A stretch of DNA of 64,000 bases from an uncultured Pelagibacteraceae bacterium (GTDB lineage: Bacteria > Pseudomonadota > Alphaproteobacteria > Pelagibacterales > Pelagibacteraceae): positions 62,001 through 126,000 of the forward strand of contig CACHIV010000001.1 of the NCBI GenBank assembly GCA_902579985.1. Reading direction: 5' to 3'. The translations under genes and the position numbers were made by a program. Below, one piece after another: positions 10,870 to 43,946 of the stretch (its first letter is position 1; every line of letters starts with the position of its first letter). The notes beneath the pieces are model-generated. The model ran no database searches and was not told the DNA's origin. It was given only the letters and a program-made list of their open reading frames with translations.

Positions 10870-10893
10870 AAAATTTTTTTGTTATAAACAATA

Positions 10894-10916
10894 AGAGCGG
10901 ACATAAAGTCCGCTCT
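10894..10916 (-). terminator. Intercistronic hairpin between dctP and dctQ (leaky terminator or mRNA stabiliser)
   Basis: A perfect 9-bp inverted repeat AGAGCGGAC/GTCCGCTCT with a 5-base loop, GC-rich for this genome, starting 24 bases after the dctP stop. The downstream T content is modest (TTATTGTTT), so it is more likely a partial terminator or 3'-end stabiliser than a full stop. Such hairpins commonly allow binding proteins to be made in excess of permeases. Confidence 0.65.
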
Positions 10917-10940
10917 AATTAAATTAAGATTTTATACTGA

Positions 10941-12032: not shown

Positions 12033-12165
12033 TATTTTCCCTTTTTGTTAGTTAAATTTAAAGCGACATCCAACCAGAAAAACTAATTTGATACAAGTGA
12101 CAATTGTTCCATATAGGTATAAAAATGATTAAATAACAATTATTAAAAAAACAATTCAACTATAA

Positions 12166-13776
12166 ATGGAAAATTTTGATTTTATTATTATTGGTGCAGG
12201 ATCGGCTGGATGCGTCTTAGCCAACAGACTTTCAACAAATCCAAAAAATAAAGTTTTACTTTTAGAAGCAGGAGGAAAGGATAATTATCCTTGGATACAT
12301 ATCCCTGTTGGGTATTACAAAACTATGCATAATCCAAAAGTTGATTGGTGTTTTTATACAGAGAAAGATGAAAGCATGAACAATAGATCAATAAGATATC
12401 CTAGAGGCAAAACATTAGGAGGAAGCTCTTCAATTAATGGACTTCTTTGGATAAGAGGTCAGAGTAATGACTATGATAACTGGCGTCAACAAGGTAATAA
12501 TGGCTGGGGCTGGGATGATGTTTTACCTTACTTTATAAAATCTGAAAATAATGAACTGGGTAAAAATAAATTTCATAGTGATAGTGGTCCCATAATGGTT
12601 TCAAACAAAAAAATTAAATTAAAAATGCTTGAAGAATTTATAAATGCTGCAGAAGAGAAAGGTATTCCTAAAGTTAATGATTTTAACACTGGTGACAATT
12701 TTGGAGTAGGTTATTATCAATTTACAACAAGTCATAGCCATATAGGTCTAAAATTAAGATGTAGCGCTGCTAAAGGATATTTGAACCCCATTAAAAAAAG
12801 ACCAAACCTAAAAATTATTACAAATGCACATGTTCAGAAAATAAATTTTGAAGGAAAAAAAGCTATTAGTTTAAATTATATAAACAAAGACAAATCAATT
12901 GAAGTTAAAGTAAATAAAGAAATAATTTTATCAGCAGGATCTATAGGGTCTCCTCATATATTACAAGTCTCTGGTATTGGAGATAGTGAAAAGTTAAAAG
13001 ATCTTGGAATAAATACTATTAATCAATTGAAGGGAGTTGGAAAAAATTTACAAGATCATTTAATGTTTAGGCCAGTTTATAAAGTAAAAAATCTTAAATC
13101 TTTAAATAAAAAGATTAATAGTATTTTCGGAAATTTTTTAATTGGATTGGAGTATATTTTTAATCAAAGTGGGCCTATGACTATGGGAGCAAGTCAGGTA
13201 TGTGGTTTTGCAAAAAGTGATAGCTCTAGAGAAACTCCAAATTTACAATTTCATGTTCAACCAATTAGCACAGATGTATTAGGTGCAACAAAACTACATA
13301 ATTTTGATGGTATAACTCCTACAGTAGCAAATATTAGACCAACTAGTCGAGGTGAAATAAATATAATAAGTAATGATATTAAAGATTATCCTAAAATTAA
13401 AATGAATTATCTTTCGACTGATGACGATAGATATGTTGCTGCTCAAGGACTTAAGCTTGTAAGAAAAATAATGTTAGAAACTGACACATTTAAAAAATAT
13501 CAACCAGAGGAATATAGACCAGGATTACATATTCAAGATGACGAAGCACTAGTTAAAGCAGGCAGTGATCATACTCAAACTATTTTTCACCCCGTTGGAA
13601 CTTGTAAAATGGGTCAAGATGATATGGCAGTGGTTGATGAGAAACTAAAAGTTAAAGGTATTAAAAATTTAAGAGTAATCGATGCATCAATAATGCCAAA
13701 CATTACTTCGGGAAACACTAATGCACCAACAATAATGATTGCGGAGAAAGGTGCTGATATGATACTTACAAATTGA
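12166..13776 (+). CDS. GMC-family FAD-dependent alcohol/choline dehydrogenase
   Basis: 536 aa. ADP-binding motif GAGSAG at 10-15, GMC signature 1 (PRGKTLGGSSSINGLLWIRG, about 79-98), a signature 2 region (SAGSIGSPHILQVSGIG), and C-terminal catalytic residues in HPVGTCKMG and GNTNAPTIMIAEK. GMC enzymes oxidise primary alcohols such as choline, and also isethionate (IseJ). It is divergent from dctP and overlaps yjbE by one base (TGATG). The pairing with a TRAP system suggests oxidation of an imported alcohol. Family is certain, substrate unknown; betA is the usual automatic name. Confidence 0.9.
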   Translation: MENFDFIIIGAGSAGCVLANRLSTNPKNKVLLLEAGGKDNYPWIHIPVGYYKTMHNPKVDWCFYTEKDESMNNRSIRYPRGKTLGGSSSINGLLWIRGQSNDYDNWRQQGNNGWGWDDVLPYFIKSENNELGKNKFHSDSGPIMVSNKKIKLKMLEEFINAAEEKGIPKVNDFNTGDNFGVGYYQFTTSHSHIGLKLRCSAAKGYLNPIKKRPNLKIITNAHVQKINFEGKKAISLNYINKDKSIEVKVNKEIILSAGSIGSPHILQVSGIGDSEKLKDLGINTINQLKGVGKNLQDHLMFRPVYKVKNLKSLNKKINSIFGNFLIGLEYIFNQSGPMTMGASQVCGFAKSDSSRETPNLQFHVQPISTDVLGATKLHNFDGITPTVANIRPTSRGEINIISNDIKDYPKIKMNYLSTDDDRYVAAQGLKLVRKIMLETDTFKKYQPEEYRPGLHIQDDEALVKAGSDHTQTIFHPVGTCKMGQDDMAVVDEKLKVKGIKNLRVIDASIMPNITSGNTNAPTIMIAEKGADMILTN

Positions 13777-21177: not shown

Positions 21178-23187
21178 CTAATTTTTTTTTAGTTTAAATG
21201 CATAAATCTTATTTCCAGATTTTGATATATTTGGATAAGCCAATCTTAAAGAAATTGCTCCTGTTGATGGGACTAAAATATATTGTTCATTATTATATTC
21301 ATAAATTGTTGGTGGACTAGACCCTGAAAATGGAAGTGTGTAACTCCATAATTCTTGACCATTTCTACTATCAAAAGCTCTTAATTTATTATCTAAAGTT
21401 CCGGTAGCAAAAACTAGATTTCCAGCAGTAGCTGTAGCACCTCCATAATTAAAAGTACCTGTAATCGGTATTCCTCTTTCTGATAACTCTTCATATTCCC
21501 CAAAGGGAACTTGCCAAATTTTTTTACCTGAATTTAAATCGATTGCAGTTAATTTACCCCATGGTGGTTTAGATCCTGGATATCCTAGATGATCTTCAAG
21601 TAACTTAGTTTTGATGCCATATTCATAATAAGTATATTTTTCTTTTGATTTTTCTAGCCAAATTAAATTTGGTATATCATTAGACGGTACGTACATAATG
21701 CCATTTTTATTATCAACACTAGCTCCCATCCACTGTGCGCCACTCTTATAAACAATATTTTTTTTATCTATTGCGTGTGGTTTAAAAAATCCATGCGTAG
21801 TATTTTGTATCTCTTTTTTTACATATTCACGACTTTCTTTAGATAAATTTGTTATATCGTTTTTTTTAAAATATTGATTAGAAAATGGTTCTGGCAAACT
21901 AATTACTTTTTGGTAAAATGAAACCTTTTCACCTGGAACACTAGAAAGTGGTACTTTTTTATTAACATATCCAAAGATACTTTCTCCAGTAAGCCTGTCT
22001 AAAACTAAAGTGTTACCAAATTTAGTAGGTGCAACAACTACATCTATTTTTTTATCTTTTCTTCTAATTGAAGTTAAGATCGGTGGCGATGCAATATCTA
22101 AGTTCCAAATATCATGTTCAATTTCTTGAAATTCCCACAATAGCTTTTTATTTTTTATATCTATTGCTACTATAGAATTTGAATATTTATTATTACCAGG
22201 TCTAGTTGTTCCTTCGTAAAATCTGCCAGCATTACCAGTAGAAACATAAACAATTTCTCTATCAAGGTCTGCTGAAATTCCTCCCCAAGGATTACCCCCA
22301 GAGTAATCATACCTTTTTCCACCATATCTAAAGTATTCTTTATTTTTCTTTTTTAAAAGAAACTTCCATAAAAGCTTTCCTTTTTTAATATCGTAAACTT
22401 CTATTGCAGGTTCAAAAGTTCCTATAATAATTTTATCTTTAATTATGACTGGAGTTATTTGACATTTTTTTTTGAGTTTTATTTTACCTTGTGTTCCAAA
22501 TTTTTTAACTTCTTTTCCGTTAAAAGCATCTAATGCTATTAAATTACCTTGATCACAAAAATAAATTTTTGAATTATTCTCTTCATTAAAAATTAAACCA
22601 CGAATAGCTGCTCTACCCTTAGTTTTATATTCCCATTTTTTTTTTCCATCTTTTGCATGAAGAGCAACTAATGACTCACCTGCTGTAGAAGCCATGTAAA
22701 TAGTTTTATCAAAATAAATTGGATTACCAGGGATATCACCATTTTTATTAAACTCGTAAATCCAGGCAACTTCTAAATCTTTAATATTTTTTGTATTTAT
22801 CTGATCTAAATCAGAGAATTTATTTGATGAATGGTTTCCGTGGCTTCTTTTCCAATCTATAGTGTTATTATAATTTTTGTTATTTGATATTGTTAAATTA
22901 TCATATGATGGTGGAATGACTATTTCATTGGATAAGCTATTATATTTTTCAATATCTTGATTAAAAAATTCATGTTGTTTTTTCTTACTTAAATTGAAAT
23001 AAAAAGAGCCAATATATAAATCTAATTTTCTAGCAAATCTTTTTAATGGGGGATTTCTTACATTATTAATATCAATATCTATTGTTGATCTATTAACATA
23101 TCTACTGTCAATAGAAGTAAATTCATAGATTGAAAAAAAAATTAATAATACTAATAAATATATAAGAGCTTTTAAAATTTTTTTCAT
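21178..23187 (-). CDS. Membrane-anchored PQQ-dependent dehydrogenase (quinoprotein glucose dehydrogenase-like)
   Basis: 669 aa. One N-terminal anchor helix (about 7-23) precedes an eight-bladed propeller. Blade motifs recur (DGKKKWEYKTKGRAAIRG, GKLLWKF, NKKLLWEFQEIEHDIWNLD, GKKIWQVPFG, GQELWSYTLP). HDIWNLD with the acidic residue is the conserved active-site region, and GGATATAGNLVFATGTLD is typical of the membrane glucose dehydrogenase group. It would oxidise an alcohol or sugar in the periplasm and pass electrons to the quinone pool. No pqq biosynthesis gene lies in the window. It is 23 bases downstream of xsc on the same strand. Confidence 0.87.
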   Translation of the reverse strand: MKKILKALIYLLVLLIFFSIYEFTSIDSRYVNRSTIDIDINNVRNPPLKRFARKLDLYIGSFYFNLSKKKQHEFFNQDIEKYNSLSNEIVIPPSYDNLTISNNKNYNNTIDWKRSHGNHSSNKFSDLDQINTKNIKDLEVAWIYEFNKNGDIPGNPIYFDKTIYMASTAGESLVALHAKDGKKKWEYKTKGRAAIRGLIFNEENNSKIYFCDQGNLIALDAFNGKEVKKFGTQGKIKLKKKCQITPVIIKDKIIIGTFEPAIEVYDIKKGKLLWKFLLKKKNKEYFRYGGKRYDYSGGNPWGGISADLDREIVYVSTGNAGRFYEGTTRPGNNKYSNSIVAIDIKNKKLLWEFQEIEHDIWNLDIASPPILTSIRRKDKKIDVVVAPTKFGNTLVLDRLTGESIFGYVNKKVPLSSVPGEKVSFYQKVISLPEPFSNQYFKKNDITNLSKESREYVKKEIQNTTHGFFKPHAIDKKNIVYKSGAQWMGASVDNKNGIMYVPSNDIPNLIWLEKSKEKYTYYEYGIKTKLLEDHLGYPGSKPPWGKLTAIDLNSGKKIWQVPFGEYEELSERGIPITGTFNYGGATATAGNLVFATGTLDNKLRAFDSRNGQELWSYTLPFSGSSPPTIYEYNNEQYILVPSTGAISLRLAYPNISKSGNKIYAFKLKKN

Positions 23188-23210
23188 TAGTTGTTAGATT
23201 TTATAAAATA

Positions 23211-24995
23211 TTAAGAATTTTGAGAAGGTTGCTTCCTCATATCTTCTTTATTAATGCCTGCAACTCTAACTGGCTTTTTCATTGCATCTCTTCTGAATGG
23301 TTCTCCGAGTTCTTGGTTTAATATAACCTCAATAAATGTTGTAATTCCCTTTTTTTGGTCTTCACAAGATTTTTTTATTGCTTTAGTAGTTTCTTCCATT
23401 GTTGTAACTTTAACACCCTTTAAACCACAAGCGATTGCGACCTTCGCATAACTTAATTCAGGATCCAATTCTGTTCCTACAAAGTTATCATCGAACCAAA
23501 GAATAGAATTTCTTTTTTCAGCTCCCCATTGATAATTTCTAAAAATAACCATTGTAATTGCTGGCCACTCTTCTCTTGCACACGAACTCATCTCATTCAT
23601 GCTAATTCCAAAAGCACCGTCTCCAGCAAAACCTATAACTGGTGTATCTGGACATCCAATTTTAGCTCCTAAAATTGAAGGAAAACCATATCCGCAGGGA
23701 CCAAATAAACCAGGAGCCAAATATTTTCTTCCTTTTTCAAAAGTTGGGTAAGCATTTCCTATTGCACAATTATTTCCTATATCACTTGAAATTATTACAT
23801 CCCCAGGCATAGCTGCTTGAATTGCTCTCCATGCTTGTCTAGGAGACATTCTATCTTTGTCTCTTTCTCTTGCTTCTTTATTCCATACAGTTCCTTCATC
23901 ATCTTCTTCATGATCCAGACTAGATAATTTTTGTAACCAAGCAGATTTTGTTTGATGAATAATATCCTTTCTTTTCTGTCTATTATTATCACCTGCTGTT
24001 GGTGAAAGTTGTTCTAAAATTTGTTGAGCAACTAATTTTGCATCTCCACAAATACCTACAGTTACTTTTTTTGTTAAACCAATTCTATCAGAATTCATAT
24101 CAACTTGAATTATGTTTGCATTTTTTGGCCAATAATCCATTCCATAACCTGGTAAAGTTGAAAAAGGATTCAGTCTAGTTCCTAATGCTAAAACCACATC
24201 TGCTTGTTTGATTAATTCCATTCCAGCTTTTGAACCATTATAACCAAGAGGTCCTGCAGCCAATGGATGACTTCCTGGAAAGCTATCATTGTGTTGATAA
24301 CCTGAACAAACTGGGGCATCTAATTTTTCTGCAAGTTTAATACAATCTTCAATTGCTCCTCCTATTACAACACCTGCCCCAGATAATATAACTGGAAATT
24401 TTGCGCTCGATAATAAATCTGCAGCTTTTTTTATTGCGTCTACTCCACCTGCTTGCCTTTCAAGTCTAACAATTGGTGGAAGATCTATATCAATCACTTG
24501 AGTCCAATAGTCTCTTGGAACATTTATTTGAGCTGGTGCTGATCCTCTAATAGCTTTTTCTATGACTCTATTTAATACTTCAGCCATTCTTGAAGGGTCT
24601 CTGACTTCTTCTTGATAACAAACCATATCTTTAAATAGATTCATTTGTTCTACTTCTTGAAATCCTCCTTGACCCATTGTTTTATTGGCTGCTTGAGGCG
24701 TGACTAAAAGTAAAGGAGTATGATTCCAATAAGCTGTTTTAATTGGAGTAACTAATCCTGTAATTCCTGGACCATTTTGTGCAATAACCATAGACATTTT
24801 ACCGGTAGCTCGTGTATATCCATCAGCAATTAAACCACCATTAGTTTCATGAGCAACGTCCCAAAATGTTATTCCTGCATCGGGAAAAATATCTGAGATA
24901 GGCATAAATGCTGAACCAATTATTCCAAAAGCATGTTCAATACCATGCATTTGTAAAACTTTTACAAAAGCCTCTTCTGTTGTCATTTTGGTCAT
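23211..24995 (-). CDS. xsc: Sulfoacetaldehyde acetyltransferase (Xsc), TPP-dependent
   Basis: 594 aa. A TPP enzyme with catalytic Glu50 (AHETNGG), the GDGAFGISMNEM metal/TPP motif at 458-469, and the Xsc-specific ITFWDVAHE, NVPRDYWTQVIDID and RNYQWGAEKRN segments. It converts sulfoacetaldehyde and phosphate to acetyl phosphate and sulfite, the last step of taurine and isethionate catabolism. It is divergent from suyAB across a 115-base region with an inverted repeat. A second ATG three codons in is an equally good start. No pta is seen nearby. Confidence 0.95.
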   Translation of the reverse strand: MTKMTTEEAFVKVLQMHGIEHAFGIIGSAFMPISDIFPDAGITFWDVAHETNGGLIADGYTRATGKMSMVIAQNGPGITGLVTPIKTAYWNHTPLLLVTPQAANKTMGQGGFQEVEQMNLFKDMVCYQEEVRDPSRMAEVLNRVIEKAIRGSAPAQINVPRDYWTQVIDIDLPPIVRLERQAGGVDAIKKAADLLSSAKFPVILSGAGVVIGGAIEDCIKLAEKLDAPVCSGYQHNDSFPGSHPLAAGPLGYNGSKAGMELIKQADVVLALGTRLNPFSTLPGYGMDYWPKNANIIQVDMNSDRIGLTKKVTVGICGDAKLVAQQILEQLSPTAGDNNRQKRKDIIHQTKSAWLQKLSSLDHEEDDEGTVWNKEARERDKDRMSPRQAWRAIQAAMPGDVIISSDIGNNCAIGNAYPTFEKGRKYLAPGLFGPCGYGFPSILGAKIGCPDTPVIGFAGDGAFGISMNEMSSCAREEWPAITMVIFRNYQWGAEKRNSILWFDDNFVGTELDPELSYAKVAIACGLKGVKVTTMEETTKAIKKSCEDQKKGITTFIEVILNQELGEPFRRDAMKKPVRVAGINKEDMRKQPSQNS

Positions 24996-25073
24996 AATGG
25001 GTCTCTTCTTTCTCGAATTAATTGTTAAAATTTTATAAAAAATTTGTTAACTTAAAGGATTAATATATATAAG

Positions 25074-25090
25074 ATTTGAAAAATTCAAAT
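25074..25090. promoter_or_regulatory. Inverted repeat in the xsc-suyA divergent promoter region (candidate operator)
   Basis: ATTTGAA-AAA-TTCAAAT, a perfect 7-bp inverted repeat with a 3-base spacer, 20 bases before the suyA start codon and just after a TATATATAAG stretch that could be a -10 element. Its position suits an operator controlling suyAB. In AT-rich DNA a 7-bp repeat can arise by chance, and no regulator gene is adjacent. Confidence 0.35.
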
Positions 25091-25110
25091 AACAAATCGA
25101 CCCTATAAAT

Positions 25111-25395
25111 ATGGCAACAGATATTATAATTCATGATGAAAAAGACAATGTGGGGGTTGTAGTTATTGACAAAATTAAACCCAAACAAGAATGTTCCTGT
25201 TGGATTATGGAAAACGATAAAACGGTAAAAATTGAGTCTATAAACGAAATTCAATTAGGTCATAAAATTGCAATGATTGATCTAAATGAAGGTGATACTA
25301 TTTTAAAATATGGTCATGATATAGGAAAAGTAGTTAAATCAATTAAAAAAGGTGAACATGTGCATGTTCATAATGTCAAAACTAAGAAGTGGTAA
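25111..25395 (+). CDS. suyA: (2R)-3-sulfolactate sulfo-lyase, small subunit (SAF domain)
   Basis: 94 aa. A single SAF/UxaA N-terminal-type domain, as in altronate dehydratase: IIHDEKDNVGVVVIDKIKP at the start and IPLGHK-like IQLGHKIAMIDLNEGD in the middle. The small size and the following SuyB identify it as SuyA rather than the fused altronate dehydratase. SuyAB eliminates sulfite from 3-sulfolactate to give pyruvate. It is 3 bases upstream of suyB and divergent from xsc, another sulfite-releasing enzyme, which supports the sulfonate assignment. Confidence 0.9.
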   Translation: MATDIIIHDEKDNVGVVVIDKIKPKQECSCWIMENDKTVKIESINEIQLGHKIAMIDLNEGDTILKYGHDIGKVVKSIKKGEHVHVHNVKTKKW

Positions 25396-25398
25396 TAT

Positions 25399-26565
25399 AT
25401 GGAAATTCCAAAAAGTTTTTTAGGTTATAAAAGAGAAAATGGCAGAGCAGGGACTAGAAACCATGTAATAATTCTACCAGTAGATGATATTTCAAATGCT
25501 TGTGCTGAAGCAGTAGCAAATAATATAAAAGGTACAATAGCTTTACCTCATTCTTATGGAAGACTTCAATTTGGAGCAGATTTAGAATTACATTTTAGAA
25601 CTATGATTGGAACAGGAAGCAATCCTAATGTGGCAGCAGTAATTGTTATTGGTATAGAGCCTAAGTGGACAAAAAAAATTGTTGATGGAATTGCAAAAAC
25701 AGGAAAACCAGTTGAAGGTTTTCACATCGAACGGACAGGAGATATTGGTACAGTAATGAAAGCATCTAAAAAAGCTCAAGAATTTGTAATGTGGGCCTCA
25801 GAGAAACAAAGAGAAGAATGTCCAATCAGTGACTTATGGATTTCTGTAAAATGTGGTGAATCTGATACTACATCAGGACTTGCTGCAAATCCAACCGTAG
25901 GAAATTTAATGGATAAGCTTGAGCCTCATGGTGTTCATTTATGTTTTGGTGAAACTTCTGAGCTTACAGGTGCTGAAAAAGTTTGTGCAACAAGAGGTGC
26001 AACAAAAGAGGCTTCAGATAAATTTATGAAAACTTGGAGTGCTTATAATGATTTTATTTTAAAAGAAGCAACAGATGATCTTTCTGAGAGTCAACCCACA
26101 GCTGGAAATATTGCTGGTGGTCTGACAACTATCGAAGAAAAAGCTTTTGGAAATTTCCAAAAAATTGGGTCTTGTAAATTTATCGATGTATTAGAACCAG
26201 CAGAAGAGCCCAAAAAAGGTAAAGGTTTATATTTTATGGATACATCTTCAGCAGCAGCTGAGTGTGTGACGCTTCAAGCAGCTGCAGGTTTTAACATTCA
26301 TTTATTTCCTACTGGACAAGGAAACATTGTAGGTAATCCAATAGAACCAGTAATAAAATTAACTGCGAACCCTTTAACCGTAAAAGGAATGGGCGAACAT
26401 ATAGATTGTGATGTTTCAAAAATCCTTTCTAGAGAAATGAACATGTCCGAAGCTGGAGACGAGTTAATAAAAACAACTTTAAGAGTTGCCAATGGAAGAC
26501 TAACTTGTGCAGAAGCATTAGGTCATAAAGAATTTGTAATGACTAAACTTTACAGAAGTGCCTAA
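25399..26565 (+). CDS. suyB: (2R)-3-sulfolactate sulfo-lyase, large subunit
   Basis: 388 aa, UxaA/SuyB C-terminal family. It opens with [20 protein letters not shown], shared with altronate and galactarate dehydratases, has [19 protein letters not shown] with the Cys of the Fe or Fe-S site, and [20 protein letters not shown]. Together with SuyA it releases sulfite and pyruvate from 3-sulfolactate, produced from DHPS, sulfoquinovose breakdown or cysteate. Located between xsc and a UPF0324 gene. Altronate dehydratase activity is the alternative but lacks context here. Confidence 0.92.
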
Positions 26566-26580
26566 TTAAAAAATTATTAA

Positions 26581-27646
26581 ATGTTTCAAATAAAAAATTT
26601 GGTAGTTATACCAGGTATTATTCTTGCTTTTGTTCTCTACACACTCTCACAAGGTTTGAATAACATAATTGGTATAGAACTTTTAGGATATGATAAAAGT
26701 CCAATTTCTACAGCTATGATTGCTATATTAATTGGAATCATATTTGGAAATATTTTTCAAATTAGAGATTCTTTTCAAAAAAGGTTTATATTTTACTAGA
26801 GAGTATATATTAAAACTTGGAATTATTTGTCTTGGAATTCAATTAAAACCATTTGAATTTTTAGATTTTGGTAAAATAGCAATTCCTTTAATCATAGTAT
26901 GTATTTTAAGTGTTTTAATTTTAGTCAAACTTTTAATAAAAAAACTTAAAATACCAACAAGAATGGCTTATCTGATTTCTATTGGAAGTACAGTGTGTGG
27001 AACAACAGCCATTATAGCGACTGCACCCCTTATTAAGGCGAATAAAAGTGAAGTAACTTACGCAATAGCAAACATCACAGTTTTCGGAATTCTTTCGATG
27101 TTGATATATCCTTATTTTGCAAATCTTTATTTTAATGCTGAACCTTTACTTGTTGGATTATTTTTAGGGACTGCTATTCATGAAACTTCACAGGTCGCAG
27201 CTGCTGGTTTAATTTATGATCAACAATTTAATAGCCCAGAAACATTAAATATTGCAACTGTCACAAAACTAATAAGAAATACTTTTTTAATTATAATGAT
27301 TCCTTTGTTTTCGTTTTTATATAATAGAAATAAATCAAAAGTTAAAAGTTACTCCTTAATAAATATTTTCCCATATTTTGTATTAGGTTTTATTCTATTA
27401 ATCATTTTTAGAAACGTTGGAGATCAAATATTTTTAACGGAAAGTACAATAAATATTTGGCAAGATGTTATATTAATTATTAAAGATTCTGCAAAAGTAT
27501 TCTTAACTATGGCTATGGCAGCTATTGGTTTATCAACTAATATTAAAGATGTTAAATCTATGGGTTATAAGCCTTTTATAGTAGGATTTATTGCAATGAT
27601 TACTGTAGGCTTTGTTAGTATCATTACAATGCAATTATTAATATAA
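26581..27646 (+). pseudogene. UPF0324/YeiH family putative sulfite-sulfate exporter, interrupted by a one-base frameshift
   Basis: The first frame (ATG 26581) encodes helices MFQIKNLVVIPGIILAFVLY and a GIIFGNIF segment, then meets TAG at 26797-26799. The continuation lies in the +1 frame, FTREYILKLGIICLGIQLKP and STVCGTTAIIATAPLIKA, ending at 27646. The frames join at the A6 run 26778-26783 (TTTTCAAAAAAGG); one A fewer gives a continuous product of about 354 aa, the family's normal length. UPF0324 proteins have been proposed to export sulfite or sulfate in sulfonate degraders, which fits the place after suyB. Sequencing error, slippage or true decay are all possible. Confidence 0.82.
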
Positions 27647-27652
27647 AAATAT

Positions 27653-28627
27653 ATGTTCAAAATTAAAAATATTTTAATAACTGGTGGAGCTGGATATATA
27701 GGTAGCCATATTGTTGAAAAATTAGTTGAAAAAAAAAATGTTATTATTCTAGATAATTTAATTACTGGATATAAAAAATTAATTAATAAAAAAGCTAAAT
27801 TTATTTACGGAGATATTAGAGATAGAAAAAAAATATCTAAGATTATTAAGAATCATAAAATAGAAACTATAATCCATTTAGCAGCATTTCTTAATGTAAA
27901 AGAGTCTGAAAATAATAAAAAAAAATATTATAAAAATAATATTCAAGGTACTTTAAATTTGGTTCATGCTTGTAAAAATTCAACAGTAAAAAATATTATT
28001 TTCTCCTCTTCTTGCTCTGTATATGGGAATGTTAAAGGTGCTGTTAACGAAAAGAAAAAACTTAATCCTCAAAACTATTATGCATTTACAAAACTTAAAG
28101 CTGAAGAGATAATTAAAAGATTCTCAAATAAATATAAATATCAATATGGTATTTTAAGATACTTTAACGTCGCTGGAGCTAGTTCATCAGGTAAAATTGG
28201 AGAGATTGAAACTTCTCATGGACATCTAATTAAAAATATAGCTATACAAGCGTCTAAAAAAAAACCTATTATTTCTATTTATGGAAATGATTATAATACA
28301 AAAGATGGAACTTGTATTAGAGATTATATACATGTTTTAGATTTAGTGGATATTCATATTAAAACTTTAAAATATGTAAATACTAAATCTAAATCCTTAA
28401 TTTTGAATTGTGGTTACGGAAAAGGATATTCTGTTTTAGATATTATAAAAATTTTTAAAAAAACCACTAAAAATTTAATTATTAATTATAAAACTAGAAG
28501 AATTGGAGATGTAGACATGGTTTATGCAGATGTTACGAAAATAAAATCTATATTAAAATGGAAACCTAAATATAATAATATAAAAAAAATAATTAAAAGT
28601 TCAATTAAATGGGAGTCAACTTTATAA
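27653..28627 (+). CDS. galE: UDP-glucose 4-epimerase-type NAD-dependent epimerase
   Basis: 324 aa. Rossmann motif TGGAGYIGSH near the N-terminus, SSSCSVYG with catalytic Ser, YYAFTK with the catalytic Tyr-Lys pair, RYFNVAGA, and DGTCIRDYIHVLDLVDIH, a GalE hallmark. It interconverts UDP-glucose and UDP-galactose or a related pair, supplying sugars for envelope glycans. It starts 6 bases after the UPF0324 frame and converges on the transaldolase gene. Lys/Asn-rich composition resembles the sugar island at 16-21 kb. Confidence 0.88.
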   Translation: MFKIKNILITGGAGYIGSHIVEKLVEKKNVIILDNLITGYKKLINKKAKFIYGDIRDRKKISKIIKNHKIETIIHLAAFLNVKESENNKKKYYKNNIQGTLNLVHACKNSTVKNIIFSSSCSVYGNVKGAVNEKKKLNPQNYYAFTKLKAEEIIKRFSNKYKYQYGILRYFNVAGASSSGKIGEIETSHGHLIKNIAIQASKKKPIISIYGNDYNTKDGTCIRDYIHVLDLVDIHIKTLKYVNTKSKSLILNCGYGKGYSVLDIIKIFKKTTKNLIINYKTRRIGDVDMVYADVTKIKSILKWKPKYNNIKKIIKSSIKWESTL

Positions 28628-28633
28628 ATTTAA

Positions 28634-29341
28634 TCAAATTTTAAAACCTGCAGATTTTGCATCTTTATAAAATGTCCTTACAGTTTCTAGTGTCAATTGA
28701 TTAAAGGATTTGCCAAATTTTTCAATTTTTTCAATCGTTTCAGGTGGAATGGTTATAATATGACAACCCAGTTGTTTTGCTTGAATAAAGTTATATGGTT
28801 CTCTGACGCTAGCCCATAAAATTTCTACATTTTTAAATTTTTTTGCTAAAAAAATACTTTTTTTAAATTCAGGGATAGGATCTTTACCTGTATCCCCTGC
28901 TCTACCTGCAAATATTGAAATAATTACTTTTGATTTTTTATTGATAGATTTTAAAATTTTTTGTGTTTGTTTAAAATTATAAACAGCTGTTATGTTTAAT
29001 TTTATGTTCATATTATTTAATTCTTTTATAATTTTTCCAGTAAAAATTCCTTTCGAATTTGTTACAGGTATTTTTACGTAAACGTTTTTTCCCCATTGAT
29101 TTATCTTTAAAGCTTGATTTTTCATATTCTTAAAATCATCTGCAAATACCTCTAGGGAAACTGGTTTGTTTTTACAAATCTTGAGTATTTTTTTCGAGTA
29201 AGCCTTATAATTTTTGGCGCCAGCTTTTTTCATTAAACTTGGATTAGTAGTAAAACCTTTAACAGATTTTTTTTTGTTAAATCTTTTAATTTGAGTTAAT
29301 TCAGCAATATCACAAAAAATTTTAATCTTTTTTTTTTTCAT
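28634..29341 (-). CDS. Transaldolase-family protein (short, fructose-6-phosphate aldolase-like)
   Basis: 235 aa, the size of the small transaldolase/Fsa group. KGFTTNPSLMKKAG matches the first strand signature, YVKIPVTN carries the Schiff-base lysine, and FAGRAGDTGKDPIPEF and ILWASVREPYNF complete the barrel. It could be housekeeping, part of deoxysugar synthesis, or a sulfofructose transaldolase. It follows tauE on the same strand by 57 bases in a stretch of sulfur genes; that placement is suggestive only. Confidence 0.8.
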   Translation of the reverse strand: MKKKKIKIFCDIAELTQIKRFNKKKSVKGFTTNPSLMKKAGAKNYKAYSKKILKICKNKPVSLEVFADDFKNMKNQALKINQWGKNVYVKIPVTNSKGIFTGKIIKELNNMNIKLNITAVYNFKQTQKILKSINKKSKVIISIFAGRAGDTGKDPIPEFKKSIFLAKKFKNVEILWASVREPYNFIQAKQLGCHIITIPPETIEKIEKFGKSFNQLTLETVRTFYKDAKSAGFKI

Positions 29342-29398
29342 ATTTCAAAATGATTATTCAATTTTTTTATTAAAAGCTAGTTATTATTTATTTATTAA

Positions 29399-30481
29399 TT
29401 ATGCTGTTTTTTGAAAATATTTTTTTCTTAAATTAGATAAAAACCTTCTAATAAATGCAGCGGCTACTCCTAAAATTATTGCTGATACGATTGAGAATAA
29501 GCCATACAAAACTGGAACCTCTAAAGATAATTTTTTTACAAACATTGATAATGGATTTAATTCATCAACATTTATTTTTATAACACCATTAACTGTATGC
29601 TCGGCAAAAAAAGTATCATAAGCTATAGCGATACCAACTATTAGTAATAAAATAGCAAGAAGAGTTTTTAAACCAGTACTATCAACTGACTCCCCAATTT
29701 TTTGTCCACACTGAACACCTACTATTGATCCTGTTACTAACATTAAAACTAAAATTAAATCAATAGAACCATAGTTAAATGAATGTAAAAAAGTTACTAT
29801 TACACTAACAAAAATTGTGACAAATAAAGAAGTTCCAGGAATTAATTTAGTTGGCATACCAATTATGTAAATCATAGCAGGTACTAAGATAAAAGCTCCT
29901 CCAATTCCCATTATTGCAGCTATAAATCCTACCATTAATCCAATAATAATCGGAGTAAACGCACTTTCGTACAACTTAGATTTTTTAAAACGCATCCTTA
30001 ATGGAAGACCATGTATCCAATAATGAACATGTAATTTTTTTTTAGTTATAATTTTTTTTCTTGCTTTATCAATTTCACCAAGACCTTCTACAAGCATGGC
30101 TGTTCCAATAATAGCAAGAATGTACATGTAAGCTAAAGAAATAACTATATCGATTTTTCCAATTCCTTTGAAATAAGTAAATGTCCAAATTCCTATTAAG
30201 GTTCCAACGGCTCCTCCAATTACAATTATAAATCCCATTTTATAATCGAGAGTATCTTTTAAGTAATGAGTTGTAGAGCCTGATACAGAAGTAGCAAGAA
30301 TATTATTTGCTTCATTAGCAACTGCATATGTTGGTGGCACACCTAAAAATATTAAAAAAGGTGTCATTAAAAAACCACCACCGACACCAAATAATCCTGA
30401 AAGAATACCAACTATACCGCTTAATGAAATAATTGCTAAAATATTTACTGAAACTTCTGCAACTGGTAAAAATACTTCCAT
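29399..30481 (-). CDS. tauE: TauE/SafE family (COG0730) sulfite exporter candidate
   Basis: 360 aa with 8-9 helices. The family repeat is present twice: GILSGLFGVGGGFLMTPFLIFLG near the N-terminus and GFIAAIMGIGGAFILVPAMIYI in the second half. A cytoplasmic loop (KARKKIITKKKLHVHYWIHG) separates the halves, typical of the longer TauE subgroup. Family members export sulfite or other sulfur anions. The neighbouring apr, suy and xsc genes strongly suggest sulfite as the substrate. Same strand as aprMBA, preceded by a 41-aa ORF. Confidence 0.87.
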   Translation of the reverse strand: MEVFLPVAEVSVNILAIISLSGIVGILSGLFGVGGGFLMTPFLIFLGVPPTYAVANEANNILATSVSGSTTHYLKDTLDYKMGFIIVIGGAVGTLIGIWTFTYFKGIGKIDIVISLAYMYILAIIGTAMLVEGLGEIDKARKKIITKKKLHVHYWIHGLPLRMRFKKSKLYESAFTPIIIGLMVGFIAAIMGIGGAFILVPAMIYIIGMPTKLIPGTSLFVTIFVSVIVTFLHSFNYGSIDLILVLMLVTGSIVGVQCGQKIGESVDSTGLKTLLAILLLIVGIAIAYDTFFAEHTVNGVIKINVDELNPLSMFVKKLSLEVPVLYGLFSIVSAIILGVAAAFIRRFLSNLRKKYFQKTA

Positions 30482-30571
30482 AAATAATTATTTAATGGAT
30501 ATTCCTGTAAAATATTATTGTCAATAAATAGATTTTAAAAAAATGAAATAAATTAATCTATATTAAAGAAT

Positions 30572-30697
30572 TTAATTTATAGATAATATAGTGCCTACGA
30601 GTATGACGCCCCAATAAGCACCTAATCCTACAATAACGCCTGTTTTTAGTTTATTTTTTTTAATTTCTGAGGGTAAGTTTTTAATTAAATCAGGCAT
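30572..30697 (-). CDS. Small single-pass membrane protein of 41 aa, unknown
   Basis: A minus-strand ATG (complement of 30695-30697) opens a 41-codon frame ending TAA at 30572-30574. The N-terminal half is polar (MPDLIKNLPSEIKKNKLKTG), and the C-terminal half is one hydrophobic helix (VIVGLGAYWGVILVGTILSI). It lies in the roughly 300-base gap between orf116 and tauE, otherwise empty, on the same strand. No family recognised; it could be a subunit or modulator of a membrane complex in the cluster. Confidence 0.5.
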   Translation of the reverse strand: MPDLIKNLPSEIKKNKLKTGVIVGLGAYWGVILVGTILSIN

Positions 30698-30781
30698 TTA
30701 ATTGTAATAAACATGAACTAAATATTTGTCAAACATTTAGTTTGGTATTTTCAAAAAAAATTTAAGAAATAATGAATGAAA

Positions 30782-31132
30782 TTAATAAATTGTAGCTCCA
30801 AAAACTTTCACCTCATCGCCCTCAATGCCAAGAACTAATCTACCCAGAAACTCTCCTTCTATCTCTTTGCTTCTTTGTTTAAATAGTATTGTGATATTCT
30901 TGCCTCTTCTAAGGCATCCAAAGGCCTCATAGTCCTCTTTAAGGCTTGTTAATATCTTGTTATTAGCCCATTGTTTGCCGAGCTCTACTTCATTTGCTCC
31001 AAATAACATTTGAGTTCCAAAATCTTTAGTAAAACCTCCATAATCTTTCATGTTAGAAGATTTTATTAAATTATCCCAAATAGGTTTAGCTATTGCTATA
31101 ATCTCATCATCAGATTTATCTAGAAAATTCAT
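30782..31132 (-). CDS. Conserved-looking 116-aa protein downstream of aprA, unknown
   Basis: 116 aa, soluble, beginning MNFLDKSDDEIIAIAKPIWD and ending LGIEGDEVKVFGATIY. The pattern (N-terminal helices, then strands TILFKQRSKE and GEFLGRLVLGIEGDEVKVFG) is reminiscent of small alpha+beta NTF2-like proteins, but I cannot assign a family. It begins 18 bases after the aprA stop, so it is almost certainly co-transcribed with aprMBA and is a candidate accessory factor. Confidence 0.75.
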   Translation of the reverse strand: MNFLDKSDDEIIAIAKPIWDNLIKSSNMKDYGGFTKDFGTQMLFGANEVELGKQWANNKILTSLKEDYEAFGCLRRGKNITILFKQRSKEIEGEFLGRLVLGIEGDEVKVFGATIY

Positions 31133-31150
31133 AAAATTGTATTAAATTTA

Positions 31151-33010
31151 TTAAGAAGCTTTTTTCTTCTCGTTTTCATCAACTATATGGTAAACGGGTA
31201 CTTTTTCCATTGAGAATTTACCTGTTTGAGGATCTCTTCTAGATACTGTTAAACAATGCCAATTTTCATCATCTAGTTTCATGTGATCGCCTCTATAATA
31301 ATATCCGGGCCAACGAGTTTCTTCACGAAACATTGTATGCTCTGTTACACACTGAGATGTTAAGGCTCTATGTTTTAGTTCCCAAGCTCTCATCAGTTGG
31401 TGATAATCTTCAGCTCCAACATTTTCTAGGTCTTCTTCTAACCAATTTAATAATTCTAAGCCTCTTTTAAGCATATTAGCATTAGTCATATAATTTGTTG
31501 CAATACCACCAACATATTCATCCATAATTCTTTGAAGACGTTGTAGACCTTGTATTGGAGAAATAAAGCTTGGAGAAACGGTTCCACCAGTAATTTCATT
31601 TTGGCCTACTGTATAATTTTCCAATGGTTTATATACTACTTTTTTAAAGTCATCACATTGTTTGTCTGTAACTTTAATACCCTCAGCTTTTTTATCTTCT
31701 ATATATTTTACTGCAGCTTTAGCAGCTAAACGACCCTCAGTAAATGATCCTGAAGAAAATTTGTGAGCACTTCCTCCAACAGTATCACCAGCTCCGAAAA
31801 GTCCATCAATTGTTAACATTCTATTGTAGCCCCAAAAATACTCTGGTGGAGATAAATCCTCAGGTCCGCTTACCCATGCTCCAGAACAAGTAGCGTGAGA
31901 ACCCATAACATAGGGTTCTGATGTAGTTAATTCGGGATTAGTGTATTTAGGATCAATATTTTGAGAGGCCCAAACTACTGCTTGTCCAACTGTCATTCCT
32001 AGAAAATTCTCCCAACCAACAGTTTCTAAATGAGGATCTTGAAAAGCTTCTTTTGTAACCATATGAATTGGTCCACCTCCAGCCATAGTCTCTTGAATAA
32101 ATGCATGATTTCTTAAACATGTAGGAGTTGGATGATGATCAATGTACTCACCAACTAATTCTTTTGTTTGATCATACCACTTTTTTTCATAATTTTCACC
32201 ATTTGCATTTTGAGTATAAGTTTTTAGATGAAGAAAATATGCTCCAACTGGACCATAGCCATCTTTAAATCTACATAAAACAATTCTATTTTCCATTTGT
32301 GTCATTTTAGCTCCTGCAGCAATTGGTAATGCATATGCAGAACCATTACTCCAAGGTGCGTACCAAGTTCTTCCCATTCCCTCACCAACTGCTCTTGGTT
32401 TAAAGATATGTGATGCTCCACCTGCTGCAACAATTACAGTTTTAGCTCTAAATACATGAAAATCACCAGTTCTCATATTAAAGCCAACTGCACCACCTAC
32501 TCTATTTTCTTTAGCTTCATCCATTAAAAGATGCGTGATCATAATTCTATTATAAATTTTATCAGCTGACTTTTTGGCTGCCTCTGCAACGATAGGTTTA
32601 TAACTTTCACCATGTATCATAATCTGCCATTTACCTTCTCTAAGATAACGGCCAGTTTTTTCGTTCTTCATCATCGGTAAGCCCCATTCATCAAACATAT
32701 GAACAGTTGAGTCTACATGTCTAGCCATATCATAACCCAAATCTTCTCTAACCATTCCCATTAAATCGTTACGAGCATATCTTACATGATCCTCTGGTTG
32801 GTTTTCATCCCATTGCATTCCCATATAACAATTAATTGCATACAAGCCTTGTGCAACTGCTCCACTTCTATCTATGTTTGCTTTTTCGACACAAACAATC
32901 TTTAAATCTCTACCCCAATGTCTAGCTTCAAAAGTAGCTCCCGTTCCAGCCATTCCGCCTCCAACAACTAAAATATCACATTCTTCATAATGCGTTTTGT
33001 GCTTAGCCAT
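31151..33010 (-). CDS. aprA: Adenylylsulfate (APS) reductase, alpha subunit
   Basis: 619 aa. FAD-binding GGGMAGTG at 17-24, then GAVAQGLYAINCYMG, GAAGGASHIFKPR-like VVAAGGASHIFKPRA, and the C-terminal MFREETRWPGYYYRGDH, all AprA hallmarks. AprAB interconverts APS with sulfite and AMP; without a dsr pathway in view, the sulfite-oxidising direction is likely. Its ATG overlaps the aprB stop by one base (TAATG). SAR11-type AprA is known; a role in disposing of sulfite from organosulfur breakdown fits the neighbours. Confidence 0.97.
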   Translation of the reverse strand: MAKHKTHYEECDILVVGGGMAGTGATFEARHWGRDLKIVCVEKANIDRSGAVAQGLYAINCYMGMQWDENQPEDHVRYARNDLMGMVREDLGYDMARHVDSTVHMFDEWGLPMMKNEKTGRYLREGKWQIMIHGESYKPIVAEAAKKSADKIYNRIMITHLLMDEAKENRVGGAVGFNMRTGDFHVFRAKTVIVAAGGASHIFKPRAVGEGMGRTWYAPWSNGSAYALPIAAGAKMTQMENRIVLCRFKDGYGPVGAYFLHLKTYTQNANGENYEKKWYDQTKELVGEYIDHHPTPTCLRNHAFIQETMAGGGPIHMVTKEAFQDPHLETVGWENFLGMTVGQAVVWASQNIDPKYTNPELTTSEPYVMGSHATCSGAWVSGPEDLSPPEYFWGYNRMLTIDGLFGAGDTVGGSAHKFSSGSFTEGRLAAKAAVKYIEDKKAEGIKVTDKQCDDFKKVVYKPLENYTVGQNEITGGTVSPSFISPIQGLQRLQRIMDEYVGGIATNYMTNANMLKRGLELLNWLEEDLENVGAEDYHQLMRAWELKHRALTSQCVTEHTMFREETRWPGYYYRGDHMKLDDENWHCLTVSRRDPQTGKFSMEKVPVYHIVDENEKKKAS

Positions 33011-33480
33011 TAATAATAAACTCCTTTTTTGAATGCACTTTTTTCAACTTTTGGTAATTCTTTATTAGTGTTCAAGCCTTCAGGTTCTGAATAAAGAATT
33101 TGAGAGTTTATTTCTCCCTGATTTGGTTTATCACCTTCTGCTAATTTAGGAATAAACTTACCCCAAGGCTTTGTTGTAATAGGAGATACAAAATCTTTTG
33201 TAGTTCCATTTCTAAATTTTATTTTCCATGAAATTGTTCCTTTTTCCTCTTCTCTTCTAACCCTGACACTGTGTCCCATTGGTGCAAAATCAGCATAACC
33301 CCTCACATCAATCGCATGGTTTGGACATGCTTTAACGCAAGAATAACATTCCCAACAAAAATTTGGCTCAATATTTTTTGCACGTCTAATGTTTTCGTCT
33401 ATATGCATAATATCAGATGGGCAAATATCCACACAATGACCACATCCATCACAACGAGTCATATATACAAAAGTTGACAT
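33010..33480 (-). CDS. aprB: Adenylylsulfate (APS) reductase, beta subunit (ferredoxin-like)
   Basis: 156 aa. Two 4Fe-4S motifs: Cys10, Cys13, Cys16, Cys20 and Cys42, Cys45, Cys48, Cys52. A C-terminal tail of about 100 residues wraps AprA in known structures. It shuttles electrons between AprA and the membrane partner. It lies between aprM and aprA, coupled to aprA by a TAATG overlap, and follows aprM by 28 bases. Confidence 0.97.
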   Translation of the reverse strand: MSTFVYMTRCDGCGHCVDICPSDIMHIDENIRRAKNIEPNFCWECYSCVKACPNHAIDVRGYADFAPMGHSVRVRREEEKGTISWKIKFRNGTTKDFVSPITTKPWGKFIPKLAEGDKPNQGEINSQILYSEPEGLNTNKELPKVEKSAFKKGVYY

Positions 33481-33508
33481 AATTTATTTTGCTCCTTTCA
33501 AAATCATA

Positions 33509-34312
33509 TTAATAGTGTTTTGGTCTGTCTCTACTTATACCTAATCCAAATTGCTTTGGGGCATCTGCTTCAGGCGGCAAATTGTCTCTGGAGCCATCAG
33601 CTTCAGCTAAATTTTTTTGTAAAGCTGCACCAGGTTTATAAAACATATGTGCAAATTTAGACCAATACACTCCCCCAAACAATACAATGTTTGAGAAAAT
33701 AAATAATACTAAAAATACTTTATCATCCCATCTATCATTTAAATTTAAAGTTTGTAAATAAGACCAAACTAGACCTGTAAATGAAGATGCAATAAGAGCA
33801 AGAACGAATAAGTCTGCTTTTATTATTCTGTACCAAGGTTGAGCTTCAGAGTAAACATCTACTCTTAAAAAAAACCAAAACCAACCTCCTCCTACAACTG
33901 TCATAATTGCTCCTACGTGCCAAATAATAGGCCAGAAAGATGGAGCATCTGATTCAGGACTTGAGTAACAAAAAATCAAAATTGCGGAACCTACCCAAAA
34001 TAAAATTGTTCCATACATTCCAAGCAAATGTGCCACTCTTCTTTTGCCAGCACCTAACTCTGATGTTGTAGCAATGTCACTTACAATAGTTTTTGAAATT
34101 ACAGATATTTTTTCTCCCGTACTTAAAGTTTTTGTAGCAGATAATTTCGCTTTTTTTGCATTTTGAAAAAAATACTTAACATTTTTTTTATGAATAATGT
34201 CTAAAAGGGTTCCAATGATAATTAACATAACCATTGCAACCACAAAAGCTTGCATAAAAATCGGTGAAACCGATTGTGCTAATATAGAAAATGGATTAAC
34301 AGATAAAAACAT
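33509..34312 (-). CDS. aprM: AprM, putative membrane anchor of APS reductase
   Basis: 267 aa with about six hydrophobic helices: VSPIFMQAFVVAMVMLIIIG, GMYGTILFWVGSAILIFCY, HVGAIMTVVGGGWFWFFLRV and others. Conserved histidines in IIWHVGAIM and WSKFAHMFYKPG could ligate haem, as in NarI/DsrM-like anchors. In aprM-aprB-aprA loci this protein is proposed to pass electrons from AprBA to the quinone pool. It is the first gene of the aprMBA-orf116 transcript. The C-terminus is soluble and acidic. Confidence 0.85.
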   Translation of the reverse strand: MFLSVNPFSILAQSVSPIFMQAFVVAMVMLIIIGTLLDIIHKKNVKYFFQNAKKAKLSATKTLSTGEKISVISKTIVSDIATTSELGAGKRRVAHLLGMYGTILFWVGSAILIFCYSSPESDAPSFWPIIWHVGAIMTVVGGGWFWFFLRVDVYSEAQPWYRIIKADLFVLALIASSFTGLVWSYLQTLNLNDRWDDKVFLVLFIFSNIVLFGGVYWSKFAHMFYKPGAALQKNLAEADGSRDNLPPEADAPKQFGLGISRDRPKHY

Positions 34313-43008: not shown

Positions 43009-43179
43009 ATGATTTTAGATTATGAACCAGGCGACAAAGTCACTAATCCAAGCAAAAAAAATTGGGGAATTGGACATGTTCAGTCGATAATTAATAATAA
43101 GGCTACAATAAATTTTGAAAATGTGGGAAAAAAAGTAATTAATACAAAAATTATCAAGTTGGAAAAAATTAGTAGATGA
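43009..43179 (+). CDS. DUF3553 family small protein
   Basis: 56 aa, ATG at 43009. The sequence EPGDKVTNPSKKNWGIGHVQ followed by INFENVGKKVI matches DUF3553, an alphaproteobacterial small beta-barrel resembling the CarD/UvrD C-terminal Tudor-like fold that could contact RNA polymerase or nucleic acid; its role is unknown. Its TGA overlaps the cysQ ATG (ATGA, 4 bases), indicating coupling. Confidence 0.8.
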   Translation: MILDYEPGDKVTNPSKKNWGIGHVQSIINNKATINFENVGKKVINTKIIKLEKISR

Positions 43180-43946
43180 ATATTGAAGATACAAGAAAAA
43201 TAACACTATCATTGTTAGATACTTTTAATGAAGCTGGAAATATTTCTTTAAACTTAAGAAAAGCTGGATTAAAAAAAAAAAATAAATCTGATAATACACC
43301 AGTAAGCAATGCCGATATTGAAGTAAATGAATTATTAACTAAAAAAATTTATAATATAACACCAAACATCGCTATTATTTCTGAAGAAAACATAGAACAT
43401 AAAAATGATAAAAATTTAAAAGATTTTTGGTTAATAGATCCAATAGACGGCACAAGAGATTACATTGATAACAAAGACGAATTTACTATAAATGCTGCTT
43501 TAATATTAAATAATAAACCAGCTATAGGAATAATTAATGCTCCAGCTAAAAAAAGACTTTTTTACTCTTATGGAATTTCAAATAGTTATGAATTAATCAA
43601 TAATAAAGAGATAAAATTAATTGATAAAAAAAAAAAAAATAAAGAAATAAAAGCTGTTAGCTATTCTAAAGAATTAAAACCTGAAATTTCAGCAATACAC
43701 AAAGAATATAAAGTTAAGTCATACCAAAAAATGAAAAGTTCTCTTAAATTCTGTGTTGTTGCTGCTGGAGAATTTGATTTATATGCTTCTGAGCCAAGAG
43801 CATTTGAGTGGGATATAGCTGCAGGACATGCAATATTAATTCATGCTGGAGGAAAATTAACTGACTTTAAAGGAAATGAGATTTACTACGGAAAACCAGA
43901 TTTTAAAAATTCAAGTATAATCTTAAAAAGTAAAAATATTATCTAA
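43176..43946 (+). CDS. cysQ: 3'(2'),5'-bisphosphate nucleotidase CysQ (inositol monophosphatase superfamily)
   Basis: 256 aa. Metal sites: EE at 70-71, Asp88-Pro-Ile-Asp91-Gly-Thr93, and the late EWDIAAGHAILIHAGG motif. SDNTPVSNADIEVN is typical of CysQ. It dephosphorylates PAP to AMP. In organisms that do not assimilate sulfate, PAP still arises from carrier-protein phosphopantetheinylation, which may explain retention. It overlaps DUF3553 upstream and the next 46-aa ORF downstream (TAATG). Confidence 0.9.
   Translation: MNIEDTRKITLSLLDTFNEAGNISLNLRKAGLKKKNKSDNTPVSNADIEVNELLTKKIYNITPNIAIISEENIEHKNDKNLKDFWLIDPIDGTRDYIDNKDEFTINAALILNNKPAIGIINAPAKKRLFYSYGISNSYELINNKEIKLIDKKKKNKEIKAVSYSKELKPEISAIHKEYKVKSYQKMKSSLKFCVVAAGEFDLYASEPRAFEWDIAAGHAILIHAGGKLTDFKGNEIYYGKPDFKNSSIILKSKNII

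Follow-up and report, generated by a model that had tools for sequence, protein, structure and literature searches.

A probable sulfonate-desulfonation and sulfite-disposal locus in Pelagibacter, with two small genes behind aprA

We analyzed a 64,000-nt stretch (hereafter the window; G000:C1:62001-126000) of the genome of a Pelagibacter of the SAR11 group (G000; 1.16 Mb in 25 contigs, 95.3% complete), and within it a block at 21178-34312 that holds genes for sulfonate cleavage, for sulfite export, and for an adenosine 5'-phosphosulfate (APS) reductase. This block is probably a Pelagibacter locus for the desulfonation of sulfonates and the disposal of the resulting sulfite. The core of this idea is not new, as removal of sulfonate-derived sulfite by AprAB has already been proposed (PMC5069961; PMC12636525). 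New here are two undescribed small partners of aprA: a 116-residue protein with a predicted NTF2-type fold, and a micro-ORF (open reading frame) with a membrane-like segment. Also new is the replacement of aprMBA by cysD-cysNC at one site in a sister family, where the aprMBA version comes with an APS-kinase-like gene. The initial annotation of the window had listed them only among its "unknown ORFs"; as constant partners of aprA, they are the most interesting content of the block.

In the flow we propose, Xsc and SuyAB would free cytoplasmic sulfite from sulfoacetaldehyde and sulfolactate, leaving acetyl phosphate and pyruvate. TauE would export part of this sulfite, and AprBA, tied to the membrane by AprM, would join the remainder to adenosine monophosphate (AMP), forming APS and passing on two electrons. 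The 116-residue protein and the micro-ORF product are most likely small accessories to AprMBA, with a role such as assembly, docking, or APS handling. Since G000 gave no match for Sat, CysD, or sulfite reductase, APS would leave by a step other than ATP sulfurylase, most likely a hydrolase or phosphorolase encoded outside the window.

Features of the block (coordinates in the window, strand):
23211..24995 (-): xsc, sulfoacetaldehyde acetyltransferase; NF005713 1038 bits (above its cut-off), TIGR03457 963 bits (equivalog cut-off 676)
24996..25110 (no strand): xsc/suyA divergent intergenic region, 115 bp; conserved GATTAATATATAA element at about 25058-25073
25111..25395 (+): suyA, predicted small subunit of (2R)-sulfolactate sulfo-lyase, substrate taken from the family; weak N-terminal match to TIGR03248, 35 bits
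25399..26565 (+): suyB, predicted large subunit of sulfolactate sulfo-lyase; PF20629 286 bits, PF04295 115 bits
26581-26799 and 26732-27646 (+): UPF0324/YeiH-type exporter gene in two frames; PF03601 202 bits (second frame)
29399..30481 (-): TauE/SafE-type (DUF81) predicted sulfite exporter; PF01925 146 bits (cut-off 33)
30572..30697 (-): micro-ORF, 41 codons plus stop, unannotated; single hydrophobic, membrane-like segment (..GAYWGVILVGT..)
30782..31132 (-): 116-residue protein, partner of aprA, NTF2-type predicted fold; no sequence family
31151..33010 (-): aprA, APS reductase alpha subunit; TIGR02061 988 bits (cut-off 642)
33010..33480 (-): aprB, iron-sulfur beta subunit; TIGR02060 188 bits (cut-off 136)
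33509..34312 (-): aprM, membrane protein and presumed link from AprBA to the electron chain; position before aprB, weak QmoC match
21178..23187 (-): pyrroloquinoline quinone (PQQ)-type dehydrogenase, directly behind xsc; PF01011 406 bits; a rare passenger outside the conserved block

Conservation and layout of the block

Xsc, AprA, and SuyB were searched in 121 genomes, namely G000 and 120 relatives (72 of the window's genus and 48 of the sister family f2), and true orthologues were tabulated; many of these genomes are incomplete. Among the 73 genomes of the window's genus (G000 counted), xsc was present in 59, suyB in 61, and aprA in 63. All 57 genomes with both xsc and suyB had them on the same contig with a gap of 363-407 bp. 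Both xsc and aprA were present in 56 genomes and shared a contig in 53, in 52 of which they lay within 10 kb of each other. The sister family showed a looser arrangement: suyB was found in 0/48 f2 genomes, and xsc and aprA shared a contig in 18 of the 26 genomes having both (different contigs in 8) and were 10-20 kb apart in 18/18, with other genes between them. The block is a feature of the genus built upon an older, looser linkage of xsc and apr.

We compared gene order in 80 named-record loci, selected via the 116-residue protein, and in about 20-21 separately fetched loci of the window's genus. The commonest layout (46/80 named loci) ran aprMBA, 116-residue gene, TauE, YeiH, suyBA, xsc. 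Another 11 of the 80 had the identical layout minus YeiH, and the others were cut by contig ends or carried inserts. The window itself has a GalE-like epimerase gene (+) and a transaldolase gene (-) between YeiH and TauE; a transaldolase or GalE insert of this kind occurred in 3/80 named loci.

The sulfonate-cleavage genes form one end of the block. Enzymes of the Xsc family convert sulfoacetaldehyde and phosphate to acetyl phosphate and sulfite, and the window's Xsc belongs to this family by its TIGR03457 equivalog score; no PDB sequence relatives were found at E 1e-60. SuyA and SuyB are of a split, two-subunit galactarate dehydratase (UxaA) type, with SuyA matching the N-terminal part of TIGR03248 and SuyB the rest, at scores far under the cut-off of that model. 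No SuyAB-specific model matched, and the solved relative found was galactarate dehydratase 6u7l, so that (2R)-sulfolactate is the probable substrate by family. In all examined loci reaching that far, suyA directly preceded suyB. The GATTAATATATAA element between the divergent xsc and suyA was exact in 18 of 21 aligned genus loci, varied in L039 and in the window (extra TA), and was not seen in L044; judged from the sequence, this region is a putative shared two-way promoter/operator.

Two types of exporter gene occur in the block. TauE followed within 400 nt behind the 116-residue gene in 69 of the 75 named loci with enough sequence; in the remaining six, it was farther off (three) or not shown (three). 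YeiH was present in 58 of the 70 named loci with suyB and TauE both in view and in 9 of 21 fetched genus loci with the suyB-TauE interval in view. The gene was one open frame in all nine fetched relatives carrying it, whereas in the window a one-base frameshift falls in a stretch of six A near 26778, and the split gene there is either a pseudogene or the product of an assembly error. TauE is the steadier exporter gene of the block, with export itself predicted from its family, and YeiH is optional, so that a second exporter is not general.

Several observations weigh against the block working as one locus. In G061, the one exception among the 53 genus genomes, the block is split by about 31 kb, with 32 kb between xsc and aprA; in favor of the locus, however, its xsc, suyAB, YeiH, and TauE form one group (L048), and in L069 the micro-ORF still follows the 116-residue gene. 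Beyond the genus, f2 lacks suyB and has the wider xsc-aprA spacing given above. With genes on both strands, the block must comprise several transcription units. In fetched genus loci extending that far, aprM retains pabABC, a major facilitator superfamily (MFS) gene, and metC as neighbours, just as xsc and suyAB are retained on its other side, and conserved order alone is therefore weak evidence of joint function. These points favor a rival reading, in which the clustering reflects a stable SAR11 gene order and nothing more, and sulfonate breakdown and AprMBA do not operate as a single module. We consider this unlikely: by family role the genes have one metabolite, sulfite, in common, and even in f2 xsc and aprA stay 10-20 kb apart in every genome with both on one contig.

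The genes named in the initial annotation (xsc, suyAB, TauE, the UPF0324 frame, and aprMBA) were all confirmed in place, and the gene-order comparison across SAR11 that it had called for bore out their co-conservation in the genus, as seen for xsc-suyB and xsc-aprA. Its suggestion of a dedicated sulfite-handling module stood in part: sulfite producers, an exporter, and an APS-forming oxidase are co-conserved within the genus and do not form one unit beyond it.

The PQQ dehydrogenase was considered as an isethionate-type member of the block and dropped, since a near-orthologue (81%) was present only in G007 among the 120 relatives; homologues at 44-46% lie elsewhere in G009, G017, and G037. Elsewhere in the window (8924-13776), a tripartite ATP-independent periplasmic (TRAP) transporter stands beside a choline-dehydrogenase-like gene of the glucose-methanol-choline (GMC) type, and its DctP had the ketoacid-binding protein 7ug8 as best PDB match; DctP and GMC genes also lie near xsc in L034, L036, and L047. 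In window positions 10000-46000, no Rfam family reached its gathering score.

Two small genes behind aprA

In each of the 32 Pelagibacterales loci read for it (20 of the window's genus and 12 of f2), the 116-residue gene came immediately after aprA. In all 79 named loci with upstream sequence, aprA ended less than 100 nt before it, these loci having been selected by the 116-residue protein itself. The nearest named records of the protein were assigned to Pelagibacter, Pelagibacteraceae, or Pelagibacterales. In an even draw of 385 alphaproteobacterial genomes it occurred in five, each with AprA: three Pelagibacter and two genomes (G407 and G314) of one other family. In G407 and G314, too, its gene sits behind aprA. 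The remaining 18 AprA genomes of this draw gave no match to it. Searches of NCBIfam, PHROGs, and PDB sequences gave no match, and Pfam gave one weak hit in 1 of 21 members.

The structural model of the 116-residue protein was confident, with a mean predicted local distance difference test (pLDDT) score of 91.8. Its PDB neighbours were mostly NTF2-like or cystatin-like, the best natural protein being 4i4k (Z 10.1, root-mean-square deviation 3.2, 107 residues aligned), and the best Foldseek E value was 1.3e-3, with none reaching 0.001. The model suggests that the protein has an NTF2/cystatin-like fold. No paper linking aprA to NTF2 and sulfite oxidation emerged from a literature search.

The micro-ORF lies between the 116-residue gene and TauE. 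It was present in 80/80 named loci and in 18 of the 20 fetched genus loci holding the 116-residue gene; L036 and L043, with a gap of only 44 nt, lack it, and no copy was found in the f2 loci. Its ratio of nonsynonymous to synonymous polymorphism (pN/pS) was 0.42 in frame and 1.02 and 1.27 in the shifted frames, computed without a formal test over 1014 pooled pairs that share ancestry. Nucleotide differences were concentrated at third codon positions. By this pattern the micro-ORF looks protein-coding.

AprMBA and the step beyond APS

In the oxidative direction, APS reductase joins sulfite and AMP to form APS. AprA and AprB of the window both scored above their equivalog cut-offs, which places them in the dissimilatory APS reductase AprBA. 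Aligned to 2FJA chain A over residues 6-611, AprA has kept Asn74, Glu141, Trp234, Arg265, and His398 (positions hand-counted), which we take to be the substrate-site residues of the A. fulgidus enzyme. The only QmoC match of AprM was weak (27 bits, cut-off 300), and its name rests mainly on its position before aprB, as in lineage I of the sulfur-oxidizing bacteria (SOB) described in the available text of PMC2211403.

A route from sulfite via APS to sulfate with a gain of ATP calls for Sat or CysDN, and G000 showed neither. Sat (ATP sulfurylase, PF01747) had no match in 118 of the 121 genomes and CysD (TIGR02039) was not found in 114, G000 being among them in both cases; all seven CysD-positive genomes belong to f2. 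Sulfite reductase was found in 0/121. Neither CysD nor a Sat match was present in 91 of the 93 genomes of this set that have AprA. The 385-genome draw contained 23 genomes with AprA. Twenty of these lie outside the window's genus, and 19 of the twenty had Sat, in 17 cases on the aprA contig within 15 kb and in 15 of these within 3 kb.

The three SAR11 genomes with a Sat match (G068, G086, and G100; loci L193, L194, and L195) have, by eye, sugar-modification and sulfotransferase genes as its neighbours, and we regard these loci as apparent glycan/sulfation islands. Pyruvate-kinase-like genes and genes for small DUF81-like membrane proteins were also seen by eye in L193-L195, and an APS-kinase-like gene lies directly before Sat in L194 and L195.

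The initial annotation had claimed a complete flow from sulfonates to sulfite that is exported or oxidized through APS. This claim was not supported, as AprBA ends at APS and no Sat, CysD, or sulfite reductase was found in G000. Genes for putative export and oxidation routes do lie side by side, in the form of TauE and AprMBA, with the reservations that the second exporter is neither general nor intact here and that the predicted oxidation leads to APS only. Overall, the block it pointed out is real and conserved and its logic is largely that of the literature; the flow is incomplete on present evidence.

For the step from APS onward, the available text of PMC5069961 describes Ca. P. ubique as lacking sat and cysDNCHIJ and gives sulfite detoxification as a possible role of AprBA, and that of PMC12636525 reports aprAB under strong purifying selection and xsc and suyAB as core or near core. 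In the available text of PMC6018831, putative sorAB sulfite oxidation is credited to an LD12 isolate and is said to be infrequent in SAR11. Several points detract from the proposed flow. No enzyme carrying APS onward was identified in a search that did not extend to HIT-, APAT-, and SorAB-type enzymes. At the completeness and contig number of G000, a missed gene is possible. According to the available text of PMC5069961, stationary cells limited for sulfur had slightly more AprA peptides than stationary controls (6:5). The 116-residue protein is weakened as a candidate replacement for Sat, since G407 and G314 carry both its gene and sat.

In f2, aprMBA and cysD-cysNC are mutually exclusive and occupy a common site. 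In 8 of 8 loci of the f2 genus g2 with that side in view, aprMBA, the 116-residue gene, and two genes, g9 and g8, adjoin the flanking gene g1. Four g2 genomes without AprA (G074, G085, G098, and G101) have a CysD-containing gene and cysN-cysC beside the same g1 (4/4 loci). The same four genes flank the site on its far side in both G074 (cysD) and G083 (aprA). YeiH lies between cysDNC and g1 in two of the four cysD loci (G074 and G098, both with xsc); G085 and G101 (88% and 77% complete) have no YeiH at the site and no xsc match beyond paralogues. Among the other cysD genomes, G113 (g2) has a contig too short to show the site, and G075 and G086, of another genus, carry cysD in other surroundings. 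The contigs of the AprA-less, xsc-bearing G079, G088, and G095 end before the apr site. AprA was present in 0/7 cysD genomes (Fisher p = 4e-4 within f2, uncorrected for relatedness), an exclusion that fits AprA working from sulfite and not from sulfate-derived APS. The cysDNC loci at the aprMBA site are L183 (8448-13275) and L184-L186; beside three of the four lies a small gene, presumably DUF2061-like. CysD of L183 (9686-11155) is extended at its N terminus by about 195 residues that match no Pfam family, PF01507 covering 217-444.

The product of g8 is APS-kinase-like (PF01583 28.9 bits, cut-off 21.1; PDB profile 2yvu, E 7e-10), and g9 encodes a small nucleotidyltransferase closest to nicotinamide mononucleotide (NMN) adenylyltransferases. 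The best PDB fold neighbours of g8 were mostly APS kinases (best E 1.3e-7), the second being the sugar kinase 4eun (1.6e-7) followed by other P-loop kinases, and its model has a low-confidence stretch at 98-123. Within f2, g9 was present in 28 of 30 AprA genomes, the exceptions (G102 and G114) holding only an aprA fragment, and in none without AprA. The window's genus has a more distant kinase/nucleotidyltransferase pair elsewhere (L209-L218, e.g. L209 9784-10559), with g8 accompanying g9 in 9 of 10 fetched loci; g9 occurred in 54 of its 73 genomes, six of them without an AprA match, and was not found in G000. The pair is separated by large ORFs in some Pelagibacter loci, and the phage family PHROG 10255 matches both f2 proteins as halves of one protein. 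As a source of the missing APS step the g8/g9 pair was set aside, lying elsewhere in the genus, lacking g9 in G000, and not being tied to AprA.

These findings also bear on a reading in which AprMBA serves sulfation: it would make APS from sulfite and AMP, an APS kinase would convert this to 3'-phosphoadenosine 5'-phosphosulfate (PAPS), and the whole would stand in for CysDNC, which makes PAPS from sulfate. The exclusion of aprA by cysD and the shared site beside g1 argue for it, as do the APS-kinase-like g8 next to aprMBA in f2 and the lack of sulfite reductase in all 121 genomes, by which CysDNC of f2 would not serve assimilation through that enzyme. A gene for a CysQ-like 3'(2'),5'-bisphosphate nucleotidase in the window (43176-43946; 188 bits, under the cut-off of 229) points the same way. 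Against it, the pair lies apart from AprMBA in the window's genus with the distribution of g9 described above, the near-equal match of 4eun and the low-confidence stretch blur the identity of g8, and the affinity of g9 to NMN adenylyltransferases could place the pair in another pathway. Moreover, the AprA genomes G068 and G100 have separate Sat-bearing islands, and the shared site is not universal: in L054 and L060 (f2 genus g4) aprMBA stands next to other genes, with g1 not there, and in L065 (another f2 genus) one gene separates aprM from g1. We give this reading little credence. The same small probability attaches to the broader view that the Pelagibacterales APS reductase, instead of starting sulfite oxidation to sulfate, is an APS source for another use (e.g. 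PAPS for sulfation), with the 116-residue protein and the micro-ORF product handling or passing on APS. A link of AprMBA to APS or PAPS use is possible and far from shown, and the desulfonation and sulfite-disposal locus remains our preferred reading.

Comparison with known systems

SAR11 cells, which rank with the most abundant in the ocean, import taurine, 2,3-dihydroxypropane-1-sulfonate (DHPS), and other sulfonates, and the fate of their sulfite affects the return of organic sulfur to sulfate. The final step is unaccounted for in SAR11, while other alphaproteobacteria with AprA keep sat. Because apr and cysDNC replace each other at one site, it becomes possible to test in which direction, and to what end, the SAR11 APS reductase works.

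The operon partners of sat in A. vinosum are, we assume, aprMBA. The available text of PMC3779200 places the A. vinosum sat gene in one operon and reports its co-transcription. The SAR11 genes resemble aprMBA of sulfur oxidizers (SOB Apr lineage I; Allochromatium/Thiobacillus type) in the order aprM-aprB-aprA, in the families, and in having AprM instead of Qmo, as given in the available text of PMC2211403. Unlike lineage I members with sat, G000 has no detected sat, and an extra NTF2-fold gene (by prediction) and the micro-ORF lie behind aprA. With the AprAB sulfite removal in Pelagibacteraceae described in PMC5069961 and PMC12636525, as far as their available text goes, our block has the same genes and proposed role in common; the physical block, the two small genes, and the cysDNC exchange in f2 are not mentioned in that text.

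Cupriavidus and Paracoccus have sulfonate-degradation clusters with TauE or TauZ exporters. The SAR11 block resembles these clusters in that an exporter gene of the DUF81 or UPF0324 type lies close to xsc or suyAB. It differs from them in that we recognized among its ORFs no pta, no regulator, and no gene for the uptake or oxidation of taurine or isethionate, and in that AprMBA adjoins the SAR11 block as a further sulfite sink.

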